A stretch of 64,000 nt of DNA. Origin: Erysipelotrichaceae bacterium 66202529 (GTDB lineage Bacteria; Bacillota_I; Bacilli_A; Erysipelotrichales; Erysipelotrichaceae). The stretch covers positions 4,092,001 to 4,156,000 of the forward strand of contig CP046174.1 of assembly GCA_017161075.1 (NCBI GenBank), given 5' to 3'. Shown here piece after piece: positions 11,882 through 63,027 of this stretch (the first letter of the stretch is position 1; every line of letters starts with the position of its first letter). The translations under genes and the position numbers were made by a program. Below the pieces are notes generated by a model. The model made no database searches. It was not told the DNA's origin and saw only the letters and a program-made list of their open reading frames with translations.

Positions 11882-13099
11882 TCATTCATGAAAATACCAC
11901 TTGTTTTCCTTCAATTCCTTTAAATCCTGTGGATATAAGGCAGGCACCTCCAGAATAACAGGCTTTTTTTTCACCGTTTCCCATGCATAAAACCGATAAA
12001 TTGGCAGGACATAAGGCTGATAGGAGGCATACCCATAGTCTCTGCCTCCATAGGTAAGCTCAACGTGAAGAATATCGAGGTGCTTTAAAGAATATTCTGT
12101 AGACTGAAGGATACTGTAATATCCCCCCTGATACATAACCTCTTTTGCTTCCTCACTGCTCAGAATAGTATATTCCTGCAGCAGCTTGTACTTTTTACTA
12201 TACGGAATGCTGAGATAGTATACACCGTTTCCAGCATCACATAATACAGCCCCCTCTATCACCTGATGTAACAATCCCTTTTTCGCATGATCGTCTGCCT
12301 CGAAGATATCTGTTTGGCAAACCATCAGTCCGTTTCCCATATGGATATCACAGCTTGTCTGCATATCTGCCCTTTTGAAGGAGAACAGCTGCGGATATAC
12401 ATGTAACAGTTCCTTTGCGATGTTCTGCTGCTGTGTTCTGGTTCCTTCCTTTAAATCTGTTTCTATAATAAATCGCAAATCACCGTTACCATCCGCCACC
12501 GCATCAGTGATTCGAAGCAGCCTGGACGGTGTTTTCTTTACAGACTCTAACAGATGCTTCGCTTCTTCTTCCCGCTTCTTCCTTACGGCTTCTGAAACAG
12601 ACTCCGTATTCACTACATTTCCATATAAGCTCTTATATACAGGCAGAGCTCCTGTGATATTCAAATGTGCATTTTCATATGGCATATCCCTGATTTTCTT
12701 TTTCTGTATAGATACCTGCTCAGAAGCCCCCATTCCCCCCATAAAGGATTGTATCTGCGGCTGATAGGATGCATCCGGAAGAATACGATCCTGTGCAGAG
12801 CCTGTCTTTCCTTCTGTTTCCTTTAGCGAATCCGTTACTGATTCCTCATGTATGGTATTCCCTGAGTTTTTCGCTATCTGCCCCATATCCTCCCCTACAT
12901 CTGCGGGCTTATCAAACAGCATATATAGTCCTATACATAGCAAAAGCATAGCACATACCGTTACACATCCCCATACATACCGGTGATTCCGTCGATGGTA
13001 TTGCCGTGGCTGCATCTCATCCTGCACAGCATTTCTGATGTTTTGCTTTAACTCCTCACTCATATGTATCTGATTCAGCTCATCGCGATATTTCTTCAT
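11882..13099 (-). CDS. Membrane protein paired with an ECF sigma factor, probable anti-sigma factor
   Basis: A 405-aa single-pass membrane protein. Residues 1-40 are cytosolic (RDELNQIHMSEELKQNIRNA, then a basic stretch), 41-62 is the membrane segment (YVWGCVTVCAMLLLCIGLYMLF), and about 340 residues are extracytoplasmic. The outer part is polar after the membrane, followed by a mixed beta-rich region with several aromatic segments (YQGGYYSILQSTEYS, YGGRDYGYASYQPYVLP). The gene overlaps the sigma gene by 4 bases (ATGA), the usual arrangement of an ECF sigma/anti-sigma pair. No zinc-binding H-x3-C-x2-C motif is visible, so it is not a ZAS-type anti-sigma. The signal it senses is unknown. Confidence 0.7.
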   Translation of the reverse strand: MKKYRDELNQIHMSEELKQNIRNAVQDEMQPRQYHRRNHRYVWGCVTVCAMLLLCIGLYMLFDKPADVGEDMGQIAKNSGNTIHEESVTDSLKETEGKTGSAQDRILPDASYQPQIQSFMGGMGASEQVSIQKKKIRDMPYENAHLNITGALPVYKSLYGNVVNTESVSEAVRKKREEEAKHLLESVKKTPSRLLRITDAVADGNGDLRFIIETDLKEGTRTQQQNIAKELLHVYPQLFSFKRADMQTSCDIHMGNGLMVCQTDIFEADDHAKKGLLHQVIEGAVLCDAGNGVYYLSIPYSKKYKLLQEYTILSSEEAKEVMYQGGYYSILQSTEYSLKHLDILHVELTYGGRDYGYASYQPYVLPIYRFYAWETVKKKPVILEVPALYPQDLKELKENKWYFHE

Positions 13100-13587
13100 A
13101 ACAACTCACCCTCTTCCAGTCTTTTTTTCAGCTGCTTTCTTGCACGGTGCAGCCATGTTAGTATGGTTGCTTCTTTTTTCTGCAGAATTTCCGCAATCAT
13201 AGAGACACTAAGCTCCTCATAATAAAACAGATATAGGACATTGCGATACTTTACCGGCAGCTTCATAACCTCATATAAAAGCCCAAAATCAGCCTTTACG
13301 TTTATCCCTGCCAGATTTTCCTGCAGTTCCACCGTCGTTCGCAGCTTCTGATATTTCCAGCAGTCCTTACATACATTGATCGTCACCCGCAGAATCCATG
13401 CCTTTTCATGTGCCTTTGATGTAAATTGCGGGCGCTTCTTCATAATCCGTAAAAAAACATCCTGTGATACATCCTGCGCATCATATACATTTCCCATATT
13501 CTGCAAGGCAATCCGGTATACCGTATCACCATAAACCTCCAGCAGCTCATCCAGACTGCTGCACAGCGCCTGCTCACTTTCATCCAT
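13096..13587 (-). CDS. ECF RNA polymerase sigma factor
   Basis: Directs RNA polymerase to a private promoter set. The 163-aa protein has region 2 (DTVYRIALQNMGNVYDAQDVSQDVFLRIMKK) with the typical D-A-x-D-x-x-Q-D-V-F segment, the KAWILRVTINVCKD end of region 2, and region 4 (LYLFYYEELSVSMIAEILQKKEATILTWLHRARKQLKK). It is first of a two-gene operon with the membrane protein that overlaps its stop. AGGAGA lies 6 bases before the ATG. Its own promoter cannot be assigned without knowing the sigma specificity. Confidence 0.92.
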   Translation of the reverse strand: MDESEQALCSSLDELLEVYGDTVYRIALQNMGNVYDAQDVSQDVFLRIMKKRPQFTSKAHEKAWILRVTINVCKDCWKYQKLRTTVELQENLAGINVKADFGLLYEVMKLPVKYRNVLYLFYYEELSVSMIAEILQKKEATILTWLHRARKQLKKRLEEGELL

Positions 13588-33751: not shown

Positions 33752-33804
33752 TTTAATACCTCTTTGCACTGCATTACATTCTTATGAATGCGAGATAAAA
33801 CAGT

Positions 33805-33895
33805 ACAAACTGAGCAGGCAATGACCAGAGCAGTCATGCAGCCGGGCTGCGAAAGCGGCAACAGATGATTACACGCACATCTGTGGGACAGTTGT
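33805..33895 (+). promoter_or_regulatory. NiCo (czcD) riboswitch aptamer
   Basis: The RNA folds as a four-stem junction. P1 is ACAAACTG (33805-33812) with CAGTTGT (33889-33895). P2 encloses ATGACCAGAGCAGTCAT. P3 is GCAGCCGGGCTGC. P4 is ACAGATG with CATCTGT (33861-33884). The junction sequences GAGCAGGCA, GCGAAAGCGGCAA and GTGGGAC match the czcD motif I remember from Erysipelotrichaceae. Family knowledge: it binds Co(II)/Ni(II) and has also been reported to respond to Fe(II). A terminator overlaps P4, and the next gene is a cation diffusion facilitator, which fits an ON switch for metal efflux. Confidence 0.9.
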
Positions 33896-33917
33896 ATATT
33901 CCACAGATGTTTTTTTA
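33877..33917 (+). terminator. Riboswitch expression platform terminator
   Basis: ACATCTGTGG (33877-33886) and CCACAGATGT (33901-33910) form a perfect 10-bp stem followed by TTTTTT. The left arm is also the 3' arm of riboswitch P4, so metal-stabilised P4 prevents the terminator. Confidence 0.9.
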
Positions 33918-33998
33918 TACATTTGAGGAATTGCTTTCTCAGTGAAGTGCCATAAGAGATGGAAAATTTTCGTAAAACGAAATTAGGAGGACTCTTTT

Positions 33999-34922
33999 AT
34001 GACAACGGAAAAGAAGCCATATGAAATGGCAGTTGGTATCACAGACAGAAGGGAAGCATTGATTATACGAAAAATGTCGTTGATTAGCCTGATTGGTAAT
34101 ACGGTATTATCCGGCTTTAAGCTGTTTGCCGGTGTTATCGGTAATTCCGGTGCAATGATTTCCGATGCTATCCATTCTTTTTCAGATGTATTAACTACCT
34201 TGATTGCCTGGATTGGTGTCAAGGTTTCCAAAAAAGCTGCGGATGAGGCACATCCTTACGGACATGAACGTATGGAATGCGTCGCTTCTCTGCTTTTAGG
34301 TCTTGTGCTTATGGCAACAGGTCTGGGAGTTGGCAGAGTCGGAGTAGACAACATTATAGCAAATAACTATGAGACTCTTGCAATACCCAAATTGATTGCC
34401 CTTGCTGCGTCAGTTGTTTCCATCCTTGGAAAGGAAGCTATGTTCTGGTATACAAGATATTATGCAAAGCTAATAAATTCCTCTGCCTTCATGGCGGATG
34501 CGTGGCACCATCGCTCCGATGCGATTTCCTCCATCGGCTCTTTCATAGGCATCGCCGGCGCCATGCTTGGCTTCCCGGTTATGGATTCTGTAGCAAGCGT
34601 AGTGATTTGTCTGTTTATTTTAAAGGTTGCCTATGATATCTTAAGGGACGCATTGATGAAAATGCTGGATACCTCATGCGGTGAAGCTTATGAAAATCAG
34701 TTAACTCACTATATAGCTGAGAAAGAGGATGTACGTTCTGTAGATTTACTGCATTCCCGAATGTTTGGCAACAAGGTCTTTATTGATTTGGAAATTTCGG
34801 TAGACGGCGATAAATCATTGCGTGATGCACATGCGGTTGCTGAGCTTGTACATGAGGATGTTGAGCTTAATTTCCCTGAGATAAAGCACATCATGATCCA
34901 CGTTAATCCGGCAAATGAATAA
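33999..34922 (+). CDS. Cation diffusion facilitator metal exporter
   Basis: Exports divalent metals in exchange for protons. The 307-aa protein has six membrane segments. The transport site is H59/D63 in HSFSD and H170/D174 in HHRSD; most CDF zinc transporters have H/D pairs, and a D in the first position would point to iron or manganese. The C-terminal cytosolic domain (residues 220-307) ends in HIMIHVNPANE. A NiCo riboswitch in the leader suggests Co/Ni/Fe efflux. AGGAGGA precedes the ATG and a strong terminator follows. Confidence 0.93.
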   Translation: MTTEKKPYEMAVGITDRREALIIRKMSLISLIGNTVLSGFKLFAGVIGNSGAMISDAIHSFSDVLTTLIAWIGVKVSKKAADEAHPYGHERMECVASLLLGLVLMATGLGVGRVGVDNIIANNYETLAIPKLIALAASVVSILGKEAMFWYTRYYAKLINSSAFMADAWHHRSDAISSIGSFIGIAGAMLGFPVMDSVASVVICLFILKVAYDILRDALMKMLDTSCGEAYENQLTHYIAEKEDVRSVDLLHSRMFGNKVFIDLEISVDGDKSLRDAHAVAELVHEDVELNFPEIKHIMIHVNPANE

Positions 34923-46424: not shown

Positions 46425-47279
46425 ATGCAGCAGGAAGAAATAAACAAACGAATTGATCAGGCGGTTCAGGGAGACCGCAGTGCATTGGAGGAGGTGCTGG
46501 CAGAAATACAGGATATGGTATTCAATCTGTCACTGCGTATGCTGGGAACGATTGCAGATGCACAGGATGCCACACAGGAAATCCTTATAAAGGTCATGAC
46601 CAGCATTTCCACCTTTCGCAAGGAAAGCAAATTTCAGACCTGGGTATACCGGATTGCTGTTAATTATCTAATGGATGTACGAAGCTCGATGTTTGCTCAG
46701 CATCCTCTGGATTTTGATTTCTATGCAAATGATTTGCGTGCAAGCTATGTACCGGATGAAGAAGAAGCCCTGACAGGCTGTACAAGGGAGGAGGCCGCAA
46801 GAGAACTGAAGCTCTCCTGTACCAATGTCATGCTGCAATGCCTGAAACCTCAGGATCGCTGTATTTATATTCTCGGAACCATGTTTCACATTGACAGTCG
46901 AAGTGCCGCAGAGATACTGAATATGACACCGGAGGCATATCGCCAGCGGCTATCTCGTGCAAGAAAACGCATGGCTACTTTTTTAAGTGAATATTGCGGA
47001 GCTGTATCCAATGGCTTCTGTCAGTGTGACAAACGGATACCCTATGCGGTGATGACACATCGTCTTCAACCGCAGAATCTGGAATACAGCAGAATGAAGA
47101 CACTGGATAAACGTATTTTAAATGAATTTTGTAATCATATGGAACAAATAGAGGAAATTATGGACAGCTTTGATCAGCTGCCGGCCTTCCGCTGCACGCT
47201 GGATGCAAAACGCTTGTTGAAGGAGCTTGTGGAATCAGACCTGATGAAAAAAGTTCAAAATACAAAGGAGGCTGCTTAA
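46425..47279 (+). CDS. Sigma-70 family RNA polymerase sigma factor with Cys-containing C-terminal extension
   Basis: ECF-like sigma factor of 284 aa. Region 2 reads FNLSLRMLGTIADAQDATQEILIKVMTSISTFR, with KFQTWVYRIAVNYLMDV. Region 4 reads CIYILGTMFHIDSRSAAEILNMTPEAYRQRLSRARKRMATFL. Then about 95 extra residues follow, starting with C191, C199 and C201 (CGAVSNGFCQC), a possible metal site, and a helical tail. The extension may sense a ligand in place of an anti-sigma factor; no anti-sigma gene is adjacent. Translation begins after AAGGAGG, and the DUF2461 gene follows by 1 base. Confidence 0.88.
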   Translation: MQQEEINKRIDQAVQGDRSALEEVLAEIQDMVFNLSLRMLGTIADAQDATQEILIKVMTSISTFRKESKFQTWVYRIAVNYLMDVRSSMFAQHPLDFDFYANDLRASYVPDEEEALTGCTREEAARELKLSCTNVMLQCLKPQDRCIYILGTMFHIDSRSAAEILNMTPEAYRQRLSRARKRMATFLSEYCGAVSNGFCQCDKRIPYAVMTHRLQPQNLEYSRMKTLDKRILNEFCNHMEQIEEIMDSFDQLPAFRCTLDAKRLLKELVESDLMKKVQNTKEAA

Positions 47280-47280
47280 T

Positions 47281-47958
47281 ATGTCCCTTATGATGGAATA
47301 TTTACAAGAGCTTCAGAAAAACAACAACCGGGAGTGGTTTCAAAACCATAAGGAGCTGCGAAAGGCTGCAGAGGCGGAGTTTGAGGAGCTACTTCAGGAG
47401 CTGATGGAACGCATTGCCTGCTTTGATCCCTCCATCATTGGATTCTCACCGAAAGAGCTGACCTTTAAGCAGGTGCGGGATACCCGATTCAGTAAGGATA
47501 AGACACCTTATTTACCAGCATTTCGTGCCCATATATCCGCAAAGAGAAAGCTCCCTGTTCCGGTTGGCTATTATATTCATCTGATGCCGGATAATCAAAG
47601 CTTTCTTGGCGGAGGACTGTTTGCGGATATGTTTAAGGACGCAACTGCCATGATGCGGGAAGCTATTGCCAAAAAACCGGATGAATTTGCTTCAATCATA
47701 AACGCACCTTCCTTTCAGAAGCATTTCACTATCCATGGAACGAAATTAAAGCGTGTACCGAAAGGATATGATCCAGAGCATGCAATGGCTGAATATCTCT
47801 GTCATAAAAGCTGGTGTTTGGAATATCCGCTTACGGATGATGAAGTGGAAGACCGTGAACAATTCCTGTCTCTGGCATCAACTATATTTCAAAGAATGAA
47901 GCCATTTCATGATTTCATGAATGCAGCATTGAAGGATTTTCAGTTTCCACAGCGATAA
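47281..47958 (+). CDS. DUF2461 family protein
   Basis: A 225-aa cytosolic protein of the DUF2461/TIGR02453 family. The signature NNNREWFQNHKE near the start, then FKQVRDTRFSKDKTPY and YYIHLMPDNQSFLGGGLF are all present, as is the LKRVPKGYDPEH segment. Function unknown. It is coupled to the preceding sigma factor gene by a 1-base gap, an unusual partner. Confidence 0.88.
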   Translation: MSLMMEYLQELQKNNNREWFQNHKELRKAAEAEFEELLQELMERIACFDPSIIGFSPKELTFKQVRDTRFSKDKTPYLPAFRAHISAKRKLPVPVGYYIHLMPDNQSFLGGGLFADMFKDATAMMREAIAKKPDEFASIINAPSFQKHFTIHGTKLKRVPKGYDPEHAMAEYLCHKSWCLEYPLTDDEVEDREQFLSLASTIFQRMKPFHDFMNAALKDFQFPQR

Positions 47959-53654: not shown

Positions 53655-55088
53655 CTATTCCTTTGCGCGTTCCACCTTTAGCTTTTTGCCCTTAATGGTT
53701 TTCCGGCGCAGGGCATGCAGCACCTGCATTCCCTTTCCATGCAGTATATCCACATAGGACTGATGATCCTGTACCTGAATAACACCGATATCATCCCCGC
53801 TGACACCTTCAATTTCACAAATGGCCCCAACGATATCCCCGGGACGGATTTTCTTTGTCTTTCCACCGCCAAGGTACAACTTCATGGTATCCTTGCGCAA
53901 ATCCTTCCCTTTTTCCTCCTTTTGTGACTGCGGAGTACCCAGCTTTTTCAGGGCTTCCCTATCCGCTATCACAGCATCCAGCTCTGCACAGTCATGAAAT
54001 TCCAGTGCATTTCCAAGATACTCCTCGAGCTCCTGAAGCCGGAAATCATCATACTGTGAAACAAAGGATATCGCAATCCCACTGCGGTCAAGCCGTGCAG
54101 AACGCCCGATTCGGTGTATGTAGGTTTCTTTTTTATTCGGCATATCATAATTGATAATATGTGTTACATCCTGTATATCAATCCCTCTTGCGGCTACATC
54201 GGTCGCTGTGAGAATACGCAGCTTCCCCAGACGAAAATCCTTCATGTTTTCCAATCGATCCTCCTGCAGCATCCCTCCGTGCAGCTGATCGACACTGATT
54301 CCCTTATCATACAGCATATGACAGATTTCACGAACATGCTCCTGTGTTTTCGCAAAAATGATACAGGATTCTGGCTGTTCCCTGCAAAGCAGCTTTAACA
54401 ATGCCTGCGGCTTTTCATGCTCCTTCATACGGTATGCATAATGATGCATCTGTTCACTAACCGATGTGTTCTGCTTGATTTCCACAGCTTCCGGATGCTT
54501 CAGAAAGTCATTCGCTAGCTCCTGTATCTCATTTGGCAGGGTTGCGGAAAACATACAGACAGAAGCAGTTTTCGGCAAATGGAAAAATATCTTCTGCACT
54601 GTTTCAATGAATCCCATATTCAGCATTTCATCTGCTTCATCCAGAATGATATAGCGCAGCTTATCCGTCCGCAAAGTTCCCTGTTCCAGATGATCCAGTA
54701 CCCTACCCGGTGTCCCTGCGACAACATGTGTCCGCTGCTTTAAATCCTGTGCCTGAAAACGGAAGGGCTGTTTGCCGAATACAGCAGCTGTTTTGATTCT
54801 CTTGTAGGCACCGATATTGTCAAATTCTCCTTTGATTTGCAAAGCGAGCTCTCTGGTCGGACTCAGCACCAGAGCCTGTGGGGAGCGTTCATCCCAGACC
54901 AGATCCTGTATAACAGGGATTGCAAATGATGCAGTTTTTCCACTCCCGGTTCTTGATTTAACCAGGATATCCTTCTTTTCCAGCATGAGCGGTATGACAG
55001 CTTCCTGTACCGGAAGCGGACTCTCATAGCCCAGTGTATGCAGTGCCTCACAGATGGAGGCATCCAGCTTATAATCTTCAAATTTCAT
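53655..55088 (-). CDS. dbpA: DEAD-box RNA helicase, DbpA type
   Basis: ATP-dependent RNA helicase of 477 aa. Q motif then Walker A SRTGSGKT, motif Ib TPGR, motif II DEAD (LDEADEM), motif III SAT, and C-terminal helicase motifs TDVAARGID and HRIGRSAR. The last 75 residues (KLYLGGGKTKKIRPGDIVGAIC... VLHALRRKTIKGKKLKVERAKE) match the DbpA RNA-binding domain that targets 23S rRNA hairpin 92. A role in 50S assembly follows from the family. Two micropeptide genes lie immediately upstream in the opposite direction. Confidence 0.94.
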   Translation of the reverse strand: MKFEDYKLDASICEALHTLGYESPLPVQEAVIPLMLEKKDILVKSRTGSGKTASFAIPVIQDLVWDERSPQALVLSPTRELALQIKGEFDNIGAYKRIKTAAVFGKQPFRFQAQDLKQRTHVVAGTPGRVLDHLEQGTLRTDKLRYIILDEADEMLNMGFIETVQKIFFHLPKTASVCMFSATLPNEIQELANDFLKHPEAVEIKQNTSVSEQMHHYAYRMKEHEKPQALLKLLCREQPESCIIFAKTQEHVREICHMLYDKGISVDQLHGGMLQEDRLENMKDFRLGKLRILTATDVAARGIDIQDVTHIINYDMPNKKETYIHRIGRSARLDRSGIAISFVSQYDDFRLQELEEYLGNALEFHDCAELDAVIADREALKKLGTPQSQKEEKGKDLRKDTMKLYLGGGKTKKIRPGDIVGAICEIEGVSGDDIGVIQVQDHQSYVDILHGKGMQVLHALRRKTIKGKKLKVERAKE

Positions 55089-55179
55089 AATTTATCACCT
55101 ATATGTTTCAGCTTTCCTACCTATTATACGGGATAACGTGAGGAAAGGCAAAGACAGACGCTGTGAAATATTACAAAAT

Positions 55180-55234
55180 TGTAATCCTGCTGTAAGCTGA
55201 AACACACGACAATCCGATGTACATACGATATAAT
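55180..55234 (+). promoter_or_regulatory. Promoter with TGTAA direct repeats, micropeptide 1
   Basis: TGTAAT (55180) and TGTAAG (55191), spaced 11 bases start to start, 6 bases before CACACGAC (55203-55210), then exactly 18 bases and TATAAT (55229-55234). TGTWAH-N5-TGTWAH is the WalR/YycF consensus; the second unit ends in G rather than H. Identical architecture to 55515-55569. Confidence 0.75.
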
Positions 55235-55261
55235 GCAGGTAGAAAGAAGGAGGAGATGGAG

Positions 55262-55327
55262 ATGAAAAAACTGTTAAGCTGGATTGGCACTGCACTCTGT
55301 TTGGCATTTTTCGGATATCACGCCTGA
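55262..55327 (+). CDS. Micropeptide 1, C-x-x-F-x-G-Y membrane peptide
   Basis: A 21-aa peptide, too short for ordinary gene callers. It begins MKKLLSWIGT, then has A-L-C13-L-A-F16-F-G18-Y19-H-A. A basic start plus an uncharged hydrophobic body gives one short membrane-inserted helix. AAGGAGGAGATGGAG precedes the ATG closely. It is flanked by a promoter and a terminator, so it is a free-standing gene. It aligns without gaps to the peptide at 55599 (shared M1, K2, K3, C13, F16, G18, Y19). No known family comes to mind. Confidence 0.75.
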   Translation: MKKLLSWIGTALCLAFFGYHA

Positions 55328-55362
55328 ACCTCTGATTTGACATTCGTCTGTTAACTATCACG

Positions 55363-55384
55363 AAGCGCTGAGAGGCGCTTTTTT
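55363..55384 (+). terminator. Terminator of micropeptide 1
   Basis: AAGCGC-TGAGAG-GCGCTT followed by TTTT, 36 bases after the stop. Confidence 0.85.
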
Positions 55385-55514
55385 CAATGTGGAACAGATA
55401 GGTGATATGGTGTTGCATAGTAACAGGATATTTTTTATATAACATTTTTTCATAGGATACAGGATATGCGAAAAGCAATGCTATTTGTTAAAGCTGACAG
55501 ACAGCTAACAGGAT

Positions 55515-55569
55515 TGTAAGCAAAGTGTAAGTAACTTCACACGACGAAGCCATCTGCTTTCGGTATACT
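55515..55569 (+). promoter_or_regulatory. Promoter with TGTAA direct repeats, micropeptide 2
   Basis: TGTAAG (55515) and TGTAAG (55526), spaced 11 bases, 6 bases before CACACGAC (55538-55545), then 18 bases and TATACT (55564-55569). Every spacing equals that of micropeptide 1, while the intervening bases differ, so the elements rather than the whole DNA are conserved. Confidence 0.75.
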
Positions 55570-55598
55570 ATAGGTGTAAAGACAGGAGGGACGCCACC

Positions 55599-55679
55599 AT
55601 GAAAAAATTCATCGAGATTGCAGAAGCTATCGCATGCATCCTGTTTCTTGGATATCGTGAAGAAAACTTCATCCGATAA
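55599..55679 (+). CDS. Micropeptide 2, C-x-x-F-x-G-Y membrane peptide
   Basis: A 26-aa peptide. It begins MKKFIEIAEA, then has I-A-C13-I-L-F16-L-G18-Y19 and ends in a charged REENFIR tail. CAGGAGGGACGCCACC precedes the ATG. The shared C13, F16, G18 and Y19 with micropeptide 1, the shared MKK start and the shared promoter say these are paralogous, deliberately regulated genes. A short hairpin (CACAG / CTGTG, 55685-55705) with TTTCT follows. Localisation to the membrane is inferred from hydrophobicity. Confidence 0.75.
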   Translation: MKKFIEIAEAIACILFLGYREENFIR

Positions 55680-55895
55680 CTTCCCACAGTTATATTTCGC
55701 TGTGTTTCTATAGATTGGGCACCCGTACGCTTTGTACAGGTTCCCTTTACAGGTTATGATGCACAGCCAGGTCTAATGATATGCTGTATCTGTGATTGAT
55801 TAGAGTATGATGCTAAGGGAACAGCCCCTATTGTATCATGTTCTCTCATATGCTGATATTTATCTATTTTCCAAAGGACTGTGCAGCATTAGCCC

Positions 55896-57290
55896 TTATA
55901 GTTCTTCTGTGGATTCTTCTAACCTCTGTTTCCTCCCTGGTTCTGTAAGAATTGTTGACTGCTCCCAAGTATGTCTGAGATAAATGGATTGTGCAAGTAT
56001 GCATTCAAAGATATTACTGAGCAGCATCGCCAACCAGATTCCGGTAATTCCAAGATGAGTAAAGCGGTGGAACAGGAGAATCATTGGAATGCGGAAAGCC
56101 CATAGCCGCATCATGGATAGGATAAAGGTATAGTTTGTATGACCGGAGCCGTTAAATACACCATCGTTCAAGTTGATATACCAGCCCATAAACACACCGC
56201 ATAATAATGCAAATAACGCATATTCACGAGTCAGCTCCACAAGCTGGATGGATGCGTTCGGTACAAATATATGGATAAACGGGGTTATCGCGAACATTCC
56301 GATGATGGTCAGCGCAGATGAGAACAATGTTGACAGCTTCATTGCTGTATGAAAAGCTTTACGGGCACGCTCCGGGTTATTGGCGCCCAGATTTTGACCG
56401 ACAAAGGTAGCTAAAATTGTACCAATGGATGTAACGGGGATATAGGCAAGCGTCACCAGTTTCGCACCGACACCGTAAGCCGATATGGCGATGGCACCAT
56501 AGTAAACAATGTATTTATTCATGATGACAAAGCCCAGATTTTCCAGAAACTGCCCGCTTGCGGCAGGAATGCAGAGCTTCAGTATCATTTTCCCGTCTGC
56601 AGGACGAAATGGGTATGTGCGAAAGTCGATATGTACCGGAAATTCCTTATCATGAAGACGTCGCCAGGCAAATGGCACCATAATCAGCTTGGATACTACC
56701 GTGGCAATGGCTGCCCCAAGTATGCCGAAGTGAAACACAAATATAAAGATTGGATCCAATACCGCATTGAATAGAGACGCACACGTATTCAGCTTTACGC
56801 CGGAACGGCTGTCACCGGCACTCTGCCGCATGGCCATATAGAGATTCAGCATCAGCAGACCGATATAATCAAAGGAAATTCCAAACAGATACCAGTAGCT
56901 GTCATCATAGATTTCTTTTGGCGTATCCAGCCAGTTCAGAATCGGATGCAGCAGAAGCAGAGTTCCCGCACTCAAAAGGATGGCAAAGCCTATCGCAAAA
57001 TATAAAAGAGCTGTTGCGAAACGGCAGGCATCCTCTTTTTGATTTGCCCCAAGACGAGTGGATATCAAAGCGATAGCGGCTGCGCTGAGTCCCATAGCAA
57101 CACTTTGTGCACACCACATGATCGGGCCTACCAGCGAAACAGCACCTACCTGTAATTCTCCTATCTGTCCTACCCAGAAGGTATCGATAATATTATAGAG
57201 AGAGTTTACCAGATTCAGTATAAAGAGAGGTACTGCCATGCGCAGCAGCGCTTTCGTCAGATTACCTTGTAATATACCTTTTTCCTGCAT
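55896..57290 (-). CDS. MATE family efflux transporter
   Basis: Multidrug/cation antiporter of 464 aa with twelve membrane segments. MATE repeats are recognisable (AVPLFILNLVNSLYNIIDTFWVGQIGELQVGAVSLVGPI; SIGTILATFVGQNLGANNPERARKAF). The protein is closer to the DinF/NorM-like group with the GQNLGANNPERA motif than the copy at 17007. A strong ribosome site (AGGAAGGAG) precedes the ATG. It reads away from the P1 peptidase gene at 57491 across 200 bases. Substrate unknown. Confidence 0.9.
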   Translation of the reverse strand: MQEKGILQGNLTKALLRMAVPLFILNLVNSLYNIIDTFWVGQIGELQVGAVSLVGPIMWCAQSVAMGLSAAAIALISTRLGANQKEDACRFATALLYFAIGFAILLSAGTLLLLHPILNWLDTPKEIYDDSYWYLFGISFDYIGLLMLNLYMAMRQSAGDSRSGVKLNTCASLFNAVLDPIFIFVFHFGILGAAIATVVSKLIMVPFAWRRLHDKEFPVHIDFRTYPFRPADGKMILKLCIPAASGQFLENLGFVIMNKYIVYYGAIAISAYGVGAKLVTLAYIPVTSIGTILATFVGQNLGANNPERARKAFHTAMKLSTLFSSALTIIGMFAITPFIHIFVPNASIQLVELTREYALFALLCGVFMGWYINLNDGVFNGSGHTNYTFILSMMRLWAFRIPMILLFHRFTHLGITGIWLAMLLSNIFECILAQSIYLRHTWEQSTILTEPGRKQRLEESTEEL

Positions 57291-58654: not shown

Positions 58655-60529
58655 CTATGACATTAAATCCTTGATATATTTTTGTAGCTTTGGATCACAG
58701 CAATAAATATAGCATCCTTTCATACCTCTTGTCATCAGTGTATAATACGTATTTAAGATAATTTGTCGTTCTATATATTTTGCTTTTCTTGGATCCTCAC
58801 GATACAGTTTTTTCAACCCCTTTACAGATGAATCAGTTTTAGCTCTCCGCCTATAATCAGTTACAAGTTCATCATTTTCATATCGAAGATCTTCTCCTAT
58901 GATAACTCCTACATAATCAAATTCAAGCCCCTGTGTAGTATGGATACAGCCTATCTGATCAATAGATCCTTTGCTTATTGCATATGGATCATTAGCATCC
59001 AGATTCCAACTCATTTTAAACTCACCAATCTCAATGTCATTATGTTTTGGATTACTTCTGCCAGCTTTTTCCCACTCCCAGCAATAACCTGCTAAAATTC
59101 TGGCTTTCCCTGATATATCATTTTTTTCATTGATCATAGCCCTTAATTTATTTGGATCATCTATAATACGAAAATCAAAATTTATATCCTTGAAATTGTA
59201 ATTTGCAGTTTCTTCTAACTGCAGCATATTTCTTATCCAAGCAAGATATCCATCAGATCCATTACAGCGGAATTGTGAATGCAATTCATATTGTATAACC
59301 TCCGCATTTAGTAGTTGTGCCTGCTTTTGAAACTCAGAAATACTTCCAAAATCACGAAAATGAACACGTTGATAGGGATCGATAAAGAAAACAGTAAAGA
59401 GTGATGATTCTATCAGCTCCTGTATCTGGTTTTCACCTTTTTGAAACATACCTGATTTTTCTCTTAATCTATGCGCTTCGTCTATAATCAAAAAATCATA
59501 ATCGTTCGGTTGCTGCTGATAAAAATTATCAGGAGCAGCAAACAGCGATTTGATTTTGCTTTTCTTCATTTTACCAGCAAGTCTATCTATGTAAACGTTG
59601 CGTGGAGCCGCATTCTTTGTTATATATTGCCCGAACATGTCTTCCTTTAGTAGCTTTACCATCGCATTTACAGCAATCACAGATTTCCCTGTTCCTGAAC
59701 CGCCTTTTGCAATCATTACCCGTTTCCTTTTATCCTTTTGACACAATCTGGCCATATAAAGAATTTCTTCATAAACTACTTTCTGTGTATCCAGCATAGT
59801 AAATTCCTGATTTCCATCCAGCATTGAAGAAATGCAGTCCTGAAGACTCTTGGAAGGTCTAATTCTGCCATTCTCTATTAGAAACAGTACCTCCTTATGA
59901 TCCCCTTCTTTTAAATGCTTTTTAATAAATTCTCGTAGTCTTGGAATCTCTCCCTGCGTGAATAAGGGTGATTTTTCAATACATGCATTATAAATTGGAT
60001 TTTTGATATTTTGTTCTTTCTTTAAATCATAATTATGCAGATATGCACAGGGATACAACTGTATATCTTTTTTCCCAACCTCCTCGATGTAATCATTCAT
60101 ATGCTGTACATATGACCAAGCCTGATAGCAAGGATGTACAACGCGATGCACTCCTTTTCCCAGTGCCGTCATAACCTCAGTATTTATCAAATCATCGCGG
60201 TTGAATACCGTTTCCACACGTTCCCACTGCTTTAGCTCAATGATAATAGCACTTGCTTTTCCATCATGATTATATCCAGACATAATAAAATCCACACGCT
60301 TGTTTGTTTTAGGAATATTATATTCAATTGCTACACCGCAGGTATCCGGTATATTCGAATCATTTAATACCTTATACATATATTGAAGCGAATTTCTCCA
60401 CGAGGTTACTTCTTTTTTACTTGTATGAATGTGCATATGCTCATAAAGCTTTTCCTCTAAAAGATGGGGTATTTTATCAAGATCCATATCCATTCTAAAA
60501 TCATATTTTGTTCCCTCATATATTAGCAT
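58655..60529 (-). CDS. DUF2075 nuclease-helicase
   Basis: A 624-aa cytosolic protein. Residues 60-105 show a PD-(D/E)xK-like core (RVDFIMSGYNHDG, D80; IIIELKQW, E98-x-K100). The SF1 helicase of DUF2075 runs from about 265: Walker A GGSGTGKS (276-283), motif II DEAH (350-353) in FLIIDEAHRLREKSG, and late motifs GCIHTTQGLEFDYVGVIIG and YTLMTRGMKGCYIY. This architecture is frequent in defence islands. It is divergent from cas3, sharing a 128-bp promoter region, which suggests co-regulation but not proof of partnership. Confidence 0.85.
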   Translation of the reverse strand: MLIYEGTKYDFRMDMDLDKIPHLLEEKLYEHMHIHTSKKEVTSWRNSLQYMYKVLNDSNIPDTCGVAIEYNIPKTNKRVDFIMSGYNHDGKASAIIIELKQWERVETVFNRDDLINTEVMTALGKGVHRVVHPCYQAWSYVQHMNDYIEEVGKKDIQLYPCAYLHNYDLKKEQNIKNPIYNACIEKSPLFTQGEIPRLREFIKKHLKEGDHKEVLFLIENGRIRPSKSLQDCISSMLDGNQEFTMLDTQKVVYEEILYMARLCQKDKRKRVMIAKGGSGTGKSVIAVNAMVKLLKEDMFGQYITKNAAPRNVYIDRLAGKMKKSKIKSLFAAPDNFYQQQPNDYDFLIIDEAHRLREKSGMFQKGENQIQELIESSLFTVFFIDPYQRVHFRDFGSISEFQKQAQLLNAEVIQYELHSQFRCNGSDGYLAWIRNMLQLEETANYNFKDINFDFRIIDDPNKLRAMINEKNDISGKARILAGYCWEWEKAGRSNPKHNDIEIGEFKMSWNLDANDPYAISKGSIDQIGCIHTTQGLEFDYVGVIIGEDLRYENDELVTDYRRRAKTDSSVKGLKKLYREDPRKAKYIERQIILNTYYTLMTRGMKGCYIYCCDPKLQKYIKDLMS

Positions 60530-60566
60530 AATAAAGTACCTCCTTATCCACAGCCTTTACTCTTAC

Positions 60567-60594
60567 ATTATAACTCAATAACTGATATATTCAA
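60567..60594 (-). promoter_or_regulatory. Promoter of the DUF2075 gene
   Basis: On the minus strand TTGAAT, 16 bases and perfect TATAAT. Confidence 0.65.
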
Positions 60595-60607
60595 TTACAT
60601 ATCGATA

Positions 60608-60636
60608 TTGACACCGCCAAATGTAAACGCTATTAT
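60608..60636 (+). promoter_or_regulatory. Promoter of cas3
   Basis: TTGACA, exactly 17 bases and TATTAT, 21 bases upstream of the cas3 ATG. The two divergent -35 boxes are only 13 bases apart. Confidence 0.8.
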
Positions 60637-60657
60637 TTAATAGATAGGGGTGGGAAT

Positions 60658-63027
60658 ATGAAAATACTGGCACATATAAACAGCAATCAGGAAGAGCAGT
60701 CATTACAGGAGCATAGTGTGAATACCTTTGCGGCGATTGAAAAGTACGCAGCAGCAAGAGGTCTTACGAATTGCATGAAGCTGACTGCTTTTTTGCATGA
60801 CTGCGGGAAGGCATCGCAGAGCTTTCAGGAGTATATAAGAAAAGCAGCCCTGGAAAATATATTTCTCCCTAAGGTAAATCATTCCTCAGCTGGCGCACAG
60901 ATATTGCTCGAAGTCTGTCAGCAATATACTACTAGCGATGATACGCTTGTGAAGCTCATGCTGGCACAGACAATCGTCTCTCATCATGGATTAAGCGACT
61001 TTTTCAATGTCAGTGGTGAGAATATGCTGCATAAACGCTGTTATCCGGAGAAAGAACTGGATATGAAGCATATTAAAAGCTATGTCGATAAGGTTACTGA
61101 TTCACAGGAGCTAACAACACTTTTCATTGCGGCTCAACAGGAATTATTCAAGTATGTTACAGATATTGTCCAACAGAATACAACGAAGGATTATATAGAT
61201 ATCTTTTTTCATCTGGGCGCCTTGCAGCGGCTTATGCTTTCACTGTTAATCCATGGAGACCGTGAGGATACACGCAATTTTATGGAGCATACACGAACAG
61301 CCAGCTATCAGGAGGACTCGATTTGGAAAGCAGCATCAGAAAACCTGGAATCTCATATCGTAAAAATAACGAAAAAGTCTACTAAAAATAAAATCAATAA
61401 ACTGCGTACCGATATATCCAATCAATGCAAAGAATTTGGCTGTCAGCCTTCTGGAATTTATCGCTTATCCTGCCCTACCGGCTCCGGCAAGACACTGGCG
61501 TCTCTTCGGTATGCTTTACAGCATGCCCAAGTATATCACAAGAAGCATATCATCTATGTTGCGCCTTATAAAACAATACTGGAGCAAAATGCTGAAGTGA
61601 TGAAACAGTTTTTTTCAGAAGACTTTGTTTTAGAGCATCATTCCAATATCATTCCTTCAGAATACACAGATTATGATTATTACAGCTCATCCTGGAATAA
61701 ACCTGTGATTTTAACTACAGCAGTACGTTTTTTCGATACTCTATTTAAAGATAGGACAACAGATGTGCGCAGGTTTCATCAGTTAGCTGATTCCATAGTG
61801 ATTTTGGATGAGGCACAGAAGATACCTGTTAAAACAGTTTCCATGTTTAATGAAATGATGAACTTTCTTGCCTGTCATTGTAATACTACCATTGTGTTGT
61901 GCACTGCAACACAGCCCTTACTGGAAAAAACAAAGTATCCTATCCGATTGGCTTCCGATTCAGAAATCGTTCGGCAGACGGAGGAACTGCATGAGCATTT
62001 TAAACGTGTACATATAGAAGATGTCTGTCGTAGTGATGGTTACACGATGACAGATGTATCTGATTTCATATTTCAGAAGCTGAAGCCGGGAAATAGTTTA
62101 TTGGCTATCGTCAATACAAAAGCAGAAGCATTAGATTTATACCATGCTTGTAAGCTGCATCATGAATTACATGATATGTATTTATATCATTTATCAACAG
62201 GAATGTGTCCAGAACATCGACAGGATAAATTAAAAGAAATGGAGGAGCACGTAATCAAAAAGGATACTGTTTTATGTATAGCAACAAATCTAATTGAGGC
62301 AGGTGTTGATCTTGATTGCGATATTGTCATTCGTTCCCTTTGCGGGTTGGACAGTATCTTACAGGCAGCAGGCAGATGTAATCGTAATGGGAAAAATGAT
62401 GATTTAGGAACAGTGTATCTGATCAATTCCAGTGAAGAACATATTGATAAGCTGACAGATGTGAAAAAGGGACAGGATGAAACAAGTATATTACTAGCTC
62501 AACTGCATAAGTCAAAGGAAGGCAGCAATGTCGATGAGCTCTTATCTCTTTCATATATTGAACAATATTACGAATCCTATTTTTTCAGCCGCAGGCATGA
62601 TATGGGGTATTCAACCGTTGTTGATGGAAAAAAGGTTACTCTATTTGACCTGCTTACACAAAGAGGTCATCTAACGAAAAATTCAGAAGCGTTATTTCAT
62701 CCATATCTGGGACAGGCTTTAAAAAGTGCAGGGCATAAATTTGAAATGATAGATTCAGACAGCATCGGTATACTTGTACCGTATGGCGGTGGTTCCGAGT
62801 TGATTGCGAAGCTGCAAAGTTCAATCAGTAATGCAGAGAAATATGCCCTGCTTGATCAGGCACAGCGGTTTATGGTGAATGTGTATGAGAATAAGTATAA
62901 GGAAATGATGAAGGAAGATATGCTTGTTCAGCTTGAGTTTAATGGAATGCTGGTGCTGAAGGAGGGGTTTTATAAGGAAGATACCGGATTGGAGATAAAA
63001 AAAGAGTTGGAGGATATGTTTGTATAA
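60658..63027 (+). CDS. cas3: CRISPR-associated nuclease/helicase Cas3, type I
   Basis: Degrades DNA opened by Cascade. The 789-aa protein fuses an HD nuclease and an SF2 helicase. HD residues: H19 in LQEHS, H47-D48 in LHDCGK, H75 in NHSSAG, H109-H110 in SHHGL. Helicase: Walker A CPTGSGKT (272-279), motif II DEAQ (384-387, the unusual last residue), CTATQP, and the C-terminal motif QAAGRCNRNG. The Cas5c gene downstream marks it as type I-C. The gene is unusually ended by its own hairpin, then a 600-bp gap before cas5. Confidence 0.95.
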   Translation: MKILAHINSNQEEQSLQEHSVNTFAAIEKYAAARGLTNCMKLTAFLHDCGKASQSFQEYIRKAALENIFLPKVNHSSAGAQILLEVCQQYTTSDDTLVKLMLAQTIVSHHGLSDFFNVSGENMLHKRCYPEKELDMKHIKSYVDKVTDSQELTTLFIAAQQELFKYVTDIVQQNTTKDYIDIFFHLGALQRLMLSLLIHGDREDTRNFMEHTRTASYQEDSIWKAASENLESHIVKITKKSTKNKINKLRTDISNQCKEFGCQPSGIYRLSCPTGSGKTLASLRYALQHAQVYHKKHIIYVAPYKTILEQNAEVMKQFFSEDFVLEHHSNIIPSEYTDYDYYSSSWNKPVILTTAVRFFDTLFKDRTTDVRRFHQLADSIVILDEAQKIPVKTVSMFNEMMNFLACHCNTTIVLCTATQPLLEKTKYPIRLASDSEIVRQTEELHEHFKRVHIEDVCRSDGYTMTDVSDFIFQKLKPGNSLLAIVNTKAEALDLYHACKLHHELHDMYLYHLSTGMCPEHRQDKLKEMEEHVIKKDTVLCIATNLIEAGVDLDCDIVIRSLCGLDSILQAAGRCNRNGKNDDLGTVYLINSSEEHIDKLTDVKKGQDETSILLAQLHKSKEGSNVDELLSLSYIEQYYESYFFSRRHDMGYSTVVDGKKVTLFDLLTQRGHLTKNSEALFHPYLGQALKSAGHKFEMIDSDSIGILVPYGGGSELIAKLQSSISNAEKYALLDQAQRFMVNVYENKYKEMMKEDMLVQLEFNGMLVLKEGFYKEDTGLEIKKELEDMFV

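Follow-up and report, generated by a model that had tools for sequence, protein, structure and literature searches.

Twin micropeptide genes under look-alike promoters between the DbpA-type helicase and MATE genes of an Erysipelotrichaceae bacterium

Layout of the intergenic region and its surroundings

The stretch of DNA analysed here (the window) comprised 64,000 nucleotides of contig CP046174.1 from Erysipelotrichaceae bacterium 66202529. A domain scan assigned positions 53655-55088 on the minus strand to a DbpA-type helicase gene (DEAD, Helicase_C and DbpA RNA-binding domains) and positions 55896-57290, also on the minus strand, to a MATE gene. The MATE protein was 89% identical to P0005 and P0027, both named [Clostridium] innocuum, and by this measure the window comes from [Clostridium] innocuum or a close neighbour of it. 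Two short units, ORF1 and ORF2, lie on the plus strand in the DbpA-MATE intergenic region. A role as leader peptide of the MATE or the DbpA gene was ruled out for both because these neighbours are encoded on the opposite strand.

The ORF1 unit begins with a direct repeat, TGTAA-N6-TGTAA (55180..55195, from sequence and pattern search), which is a putative response-regulator site. It is followed by CACACGAC (55203..55210, consensus scan and pattern search), a conserved block that overlaps a weak -35 (ACGACA, with a 17-bp spacer to TATAAT), and by the -10 itself (TATAAT, 55229..55234, consensus scan). Downstream of a Shine-Dalgarno (SD) sequence (AGGAGG, 55248..55253, read from the sequence) lies ORF1 (55262..55327, from sequence and peptide comparison), encoding the 21-aa hydrophobic micropeptide MKKLLSWIGTALCLAFFGYHA. 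The unit closes with an intrinsic terminator, AAGCGC-TGAGAG-GCGCTT plus a T-run (55363..55384), identified by sequence and fold and absent from the consensus-scan output.

The ORF2 unit repeats this plan on the same strand. Pattern search located the second copies of the direct repeat (55515..55530) and of CACACGAC (55538..55545, weak -35 region) and, together with the sequence, a -10 (TATACT, 55564..55569). After a further AGGAGG (55584..55589, sequence) follows ORF2 (55599..55679), encoding the 26-aa hydrophobic micropeptide MKKFIEIAEAIACILFLGYREENFIR, of which residues 1-19 form a core conserved in relatives by database comparison. A plus-strand hairpin (weak terminator) lies 3' of ORF2 at 55685..55704.

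ORF1 and ORF2 are separated by 271 bp, and AGGAGG stands 8 or 9 bases upstream of each ATG. The two micro-ORFs of 21 and 26 aa are thus present as originally predicted, each after AGGAGG. In both promoters 18 bases separate the end of CACACGAC from the -10, and TGTAA-N6-TGTAA lies seven bases upstream of CACACGAC; the original prediction was correct on the repeat and on the 18 bases, and the interval it gave as six bases was corrected to seven. It had also given each unit a hairpin, of which that of ORF1 is a good terminator and that of ORF2 is weaker. A possible third, weaker half-site was observed 11 bp 5' of each TGTAA pair (TATTAC at 55169-55174 and GCTAAC at 55504-55509). Separately, an 18-nt inverted repeat (89%) flanks the ORF1 unit, with one arm in the DbpA leader (55093-55110) and the other directly past the ORF1 terminator (55390-55407).

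Several other features were observed elsewhere in the window. A NiCo riboswitch (82 bits) lies upstream of a cation-efflux family gene at 33800-34922, an ordinary nickel/cobalt efflux unit. Two small proteins with sigma-70 region 2/region 4 domains are encoded at 13096-13587 and 46425-47958. An ORF at 11882-13099, whose start is overlapped by the gene for the first, has no Pfam or NCBIfam match and could encode the anti-sigma factor of that protein; the second protein also carries HTH_16, and a DUF2461 gene follows directly. A plus-strand Cas3 gene that scored best with type I-C models lies beside a minus-strand Schlafen-group-3/AbiO-like helicase gene at 58655-63027 and probably opens a CRISPR-Cas locus extending past the window.

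Similarity of the two units and conservation of the ORF2 core

The pattern TGTAA-N6-TGTAA-N7-CACACGAC occurs exactly at 55180-55210 and 55515-55545. With up to three mismatches allowed it matched these two sites alone in the window against 0.03 matches expected, a test that is partly circular because the pattern was derived from the two sites themselves. The pattern CACACGAC-N18-TATA is likewise exact in both promoters and gave three window matches with two mismatches allowed (3.15 expected). The TGTAA repeat taken by itself was not rare, with nine window matches at up to one mismatch (5.4 expected), and TTGTAA-N6-TGTAAG gave eight at up to two mismatches (6.7 expected). Unanchored similarity between the promoters was unremarkable over 31, 32 and 40 nt (3.8, 1.7 and 0.9 pairs expected in the intergenic region) and rarer over 64 nt (0.05 pairs expected). 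Similarity anchored at start codons was assessed using the upstream regions of 431 SD-preceded starts (ORFs ≥ 17 aa), compared in register with shifts of up to 3. Over 64 nt ORF1/ORF2 was the best of 92,246 window pairs and the sole pair to reach 40 matches; over 32 nt, 16 pairs including this one scored at least as well, so that it was not unique.

Among 15,712 pairs of SD-preceded micro-ORFs in the window the two peptides ranked second, the best-scoring pair lying inside two paralogous transaldolase genes. Their ungapped BLOSUM62 score was 37, a value equalled by 0.018% of ORF2 shuffles in which MKK was held fixed. The gapless alignment at C13, F16, G18 and Y19 described originally was recovered, and M1, K2 and K3 match as well; these seven identities alone are weak evidence, being reached in 3.9% of MKK-fixed shuffles. 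Codon position 2 was the most conserved (12/19, vs 8/19 and 7/19 at the others), which is the pattern expected of hydrophobic proteins and of protein-coding paralogues. The observation of twin micropeptide genes under look-alike promoters was confirmed. Paralogy of ORF1 and ORF2 is well supported, their matched promoters are supported as well, and the two genes probably arose when an ancestral one was duplicated in tandem long ago.

A protein search with both peptides recovered three relatives (P0044, P0045 and P0046), all of ORF2, and a repeat search with alignment A1 returned the same three (3 of 17 candidates). The length range of this search excluded peptides shorter than about 26 aa, and since peptides of 21-26 aa are apparently absent from the database, the visible relatives are lengthened alleles only. 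All three keep M[KN]KFIEIAEAIACILFLGY, with a core identity of 19/19 or 18/19, counts to be read with the points that a word search favours conserved sequences and that three alleles are few. The original prediction had asked for conservation of the peptides and promoter spacings in related genomes; for the ORF2 core this was checked, and conservation was found in every database relative.

Beyond the core the relatives diverge after GY or GYREE, P0044 only at the stop codon, which it has lost, and P0045 is frame-shifted. The different ways in which these two proteins lose the stop hint that the tail behind GYREE is not under selection, and the ORF2 tail seems free to vary. Besides their separate routes to stop loss, P0044 and P0045 were both observed to carry K2N. 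Their nine-residue tail pieces are consistent with one common DNA stretch at 25/25 positions. In the DNA deduced for these relatives the hairpin stem CACAG...CTGTG is kept, the loop is unlike that of the window, and one T-G pair has become C-G; conservation of the stem 3' of ORF2 is thus deduced from two proteins.

In P0046 the distance from the core to the end of the MATE gene is 56 nt, vs 240 nt in the window. Over its final 85 nt this allele runs antisense into a MATE 3' end of [Clostridium] innocuum type, and these nucleotides are consistent at 85/85 positions with 23 of 43 MATE proteins, including P0005 and P0027. The window DNA is inconsistent with this antisense stretch at 16/85 sites (14/85 using the cluster protein P0001). 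The two lineages therefore differ at 16 or more of the 85 MATE-end sites, yet the 19-residue ORF2 core is identical. In a uniform-substitution simulation at 16.5% divergence, 19/19 residues were kept in 0.055% of trials and at least 18/19 in 0.36%; at 20% divergence, 19/19 were kept in 0 of 20,000.

Family searches and the candidate regulator

Residues 4-19 have a mean Kyte-Doolittle hydropathy of 1.68 in ORF1 and 1.90 in ORF2. By hydropathy both peptides have a single hydrophobic span and a positive N-terminus, and each would form a single short membrane span with its MKK end inside. The motif CxxFxGY is common to both paralogues, and ORF1 ends two residues past it. No family matching the peptides was found in Pfam, PHROGs or PADLOC, in agreement with the original statement that no described family was known, and in NCBIfam the only match was LP_plasma (lipoprotein leader) for ORF1, at 16.1 bits and below the cut-off of 24. 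A PDB search with ORF2 gave no match, neither peptide matched plasmid sequences, and peptide-derived patterns had 0 matches in viral contigs. Rfam contained no RNA family matching the micropeptide region, so that a described RNA family was ruled out. A lipobox takes the form [LVI][ASTVI][GAS]C after a signal sequence. Lipidation of the conserved Cys, suggested originally, was not borne out; it is unlikely because Leu precedes the Cys in ORF1, and 12 residues precede the Cys in both peptides. With TALC in place of a lipobox in ORF1 and LP_plasma below its cut-off, a lipoprotein was rejected as unlikely. Among titles and abstract openings, no report of such peptides was found in the Clostridium innocuum small-peptide or two-component literature, and no related paper was found for AgrD in Erysipelotrichaceae.

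Neighbouring genes and the promoter pattern were also searched for in other genomes. DbpA-helicase relatives were found at no fewer than 80 loci in genome contigs, those listed belonging to other Firmicutes or more distant phyla at 51% identity or less. Genomes sampled around a Rossellomorea genome included no close relative: in class genomes DbpA was recovered in 17/398 (E ≤ 1e-150, best 51%) and an S58 peptidase in 23/398 (E ≤ 1e-100, best 60%). In Rossellomorea-centred samples searched without a positive control, MATE was recovered in 0/398 phylum genomes (E ≤ 1e-115) and 0/329 class genomes (E ≤ 1e-95), empty results that by themselves say nothing. A 16S probe matched 3/60 class genomes, all with two mismatches and one other 16S variant, and with at most one mismatch it matched 0/80 phylum genomes. 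The promoter pattern had no match in 161 class genomes or in viral contigs. Viral contigs held two DbpA-helicase relatives (33% and 40%) and no relatives of MATE or the S58 peptidase, and plasmids and phages gave nothing beyond helicase matches and chance hits.

Direct repeats of 11 bp situated 5' of a weak -35 are a usual mark of promoters that OmpR/PhoB-family regulators activate. An OmpR-type regulator would fit the TGTAA-N6-TGTAA boxes, and the original prediction had named WalR/YycF or another member of this family. Their 11-bp direct repeats are close to the WalR consensus quoted in PMC9210968 (TGTWAH-N5-TGTWAH), from which, in its B. subtilis form, the two boxes are one and two bases off; they differ from the WalR/YycF regulon by these mismatches and in having no wall-hydrolase gene attached. 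Sites within two mismatches of the consensus numbered 195 in the window, vs about 155 in shuffles, and a C. difficile scan allowing one mismatch gave 522 intergenic hits according to the same source (PMC9210968), so that weak matches mean little. Given the one and two mismatches and the 195 window sites equally close, WalR is a possible regulator of the two promoters, and other OmpR-family members would fit as well. Scans by Pfam or NCBIfam covered 61 of the 100 window ORFs of at least 95 aa, made up of all 48 of at least 200 aa and 13 shorter ones, and recognised none of them as a response regulator, a sensor kinase, AgrB or an Rgg-type gene; the remaining 39 mostly overlap other ORFs.

Proposed working of the pair and alternative readings

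We tentatively propose, with doubt slightly outweighing belief, that ORF1 and ORF2 encode paralogous peptides that span the membrane once, are controlled by a two-component regulator and probably modulate a partner in the membrane. Each gene would be transcribed on its own from a promoter whose weak -35 would need activation, and the activator would be a response regulator of the OmpR/PhoB family that occupies the adjacent upstream TGTAA-N6-TGTAA, in the manner of envelope-stress regulons. Envelope or nutrient stress would activate the two-component regulator and so switch on both units. The peptides, in which a positive MKK N-terminus precedes a hydrophobic stretch of 16 residues and the end carries the conserved CxxFxGY, would then enter the membrane, where their C/F/GY residues would contact a partner (a sensor kinase or an envelope enzyme). 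Such binding may tune the response as a form of feedback, as MgrB does with PhoQ. From the features described above we infer translation, the regulator class, membrane insertion, the partner and the feedback role alike. MgrB is a 47-aa PhoQ inhibitor of the PhoQ/PhoP regulon; its TM region and two lysines at its N-terminus are important, according to PMC8404706. The likeness is that of a small membrane protein in an OmpR-family two-component regulon, as proposed for ORF1/ORF2; these differ in being about half its length, from another phylum and a tandem pair, and are likened to it by manner of action alone.

The peptides might instead be precursors of secreted signals, either thiolactones of a minimal AgrD-like type, with CLAFF and CILFL as the rings, or linear pheromones resembling SHP or cCF10, a reading that we consider unlikely. 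The sequence C-xx-F-[FL], a Cys plus four residues ending hydrophobic, resembles autoinducing-peptide rings; the CLAFF and CILFL segments have this look, AgrD is also a small peptide with a Cys followed by hydrophobic residues, and four of the seven residues common to the paralogues fall in CxxFxGY. Against this, AgrD leaders and tails are longer than the 12-aa leader and few-residue tail found here, the tail is not conserved, no family matched, and NCBIfam, which presumably includes an AgrD-type model, gave no match to one. Neither AgrB nor an Rgg domain was found among the window ORFs scanned. An agrB may lie elsewhere in the genome, and an AgrD-type gene can sit apart from any agr operon (PMC5322536). 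The peptides are like the SHP precursors of Rgg systems in being short and hydrophobic with their own promoter, and SHP3 is 23 aa long, as given in PMC3150281. They differ in the absence of an Rgg gene among the ORFs scanned and in the Cys-F-GY motif, and the ORF2 tails vary, whereas SHP3 activity requires an intact C-terminus (PMC3150281). The specific form of a cyclic or linear Cys-based autoinducer pair (CLAFF, CILFL), released under envelope stress by OmpR-type regulation and with a dispensable tail, seems very improbable; if true, it would constitute a stress-gated peptide signal in Erysipelotrichaceae.

A slightly more doubtful reading than signal precursors in general is that each unit yields a regulatory small RNA of about 140 nt, which might or might not also encode a peptide (dual function), as short monocistronic units with hairpins and a stem that relatives keep while the loop changes (deduced from proteins) would allow. 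The folding energy, however, was little or no better than that of shuffles (z -0.54 and -1.36), Rfam gave no match, conservation of the ORF2 core holds for its amino acids, and the codon positions show the pattern of a protein. Small membrane toxins of type I toxin-antitoxin systems, silenced by antisense RNAs, are a shade more doubtful again. Ibs toxins are 18-19 aa, and tiny hydrophobic peptides in tandem behind strong SD sequences recall these Ibs/Sib units. The repeated units of clostridial type I toxins are similar in kind, but the C. difficile toxins named in PMC7699646 are longer (34-47 aa) and prophage-borne. No antisense promoter appeared in the ORF1/ORF2 units: the minus strand over both held no promoter-like site at 9/12, and a relaxed scan gave 8/12 at best, in consensus scans of a kind that can miss promoters. 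The region also has no Rfam match, and toxins of this sort would not usually have an activator-type promoter. Chance micro-ORFs behind chance promoter-like sequence, that is, no function at all, would agree with the promoter similarity over 31-40 nt, which is within chance when unanchored, and with the commonness of the repeat box; we judge this decidedly improbable in view of the anchored 64-nt test, the peptide score and the conservation of the core across lineages.

Genes of fewer than 30 codons tend to evade gene callers, and the relatives of ORF2 are visible only with lengthened tails. With single-span membrane peptides under a two-component regulator as the preferred, tentative reading, this paired family of micropeptides, with its recognisable promoter and gut-associated host, would offer a compact and clean case in which to test peptide modulators of two-component systems in Gram-positive bacteria.
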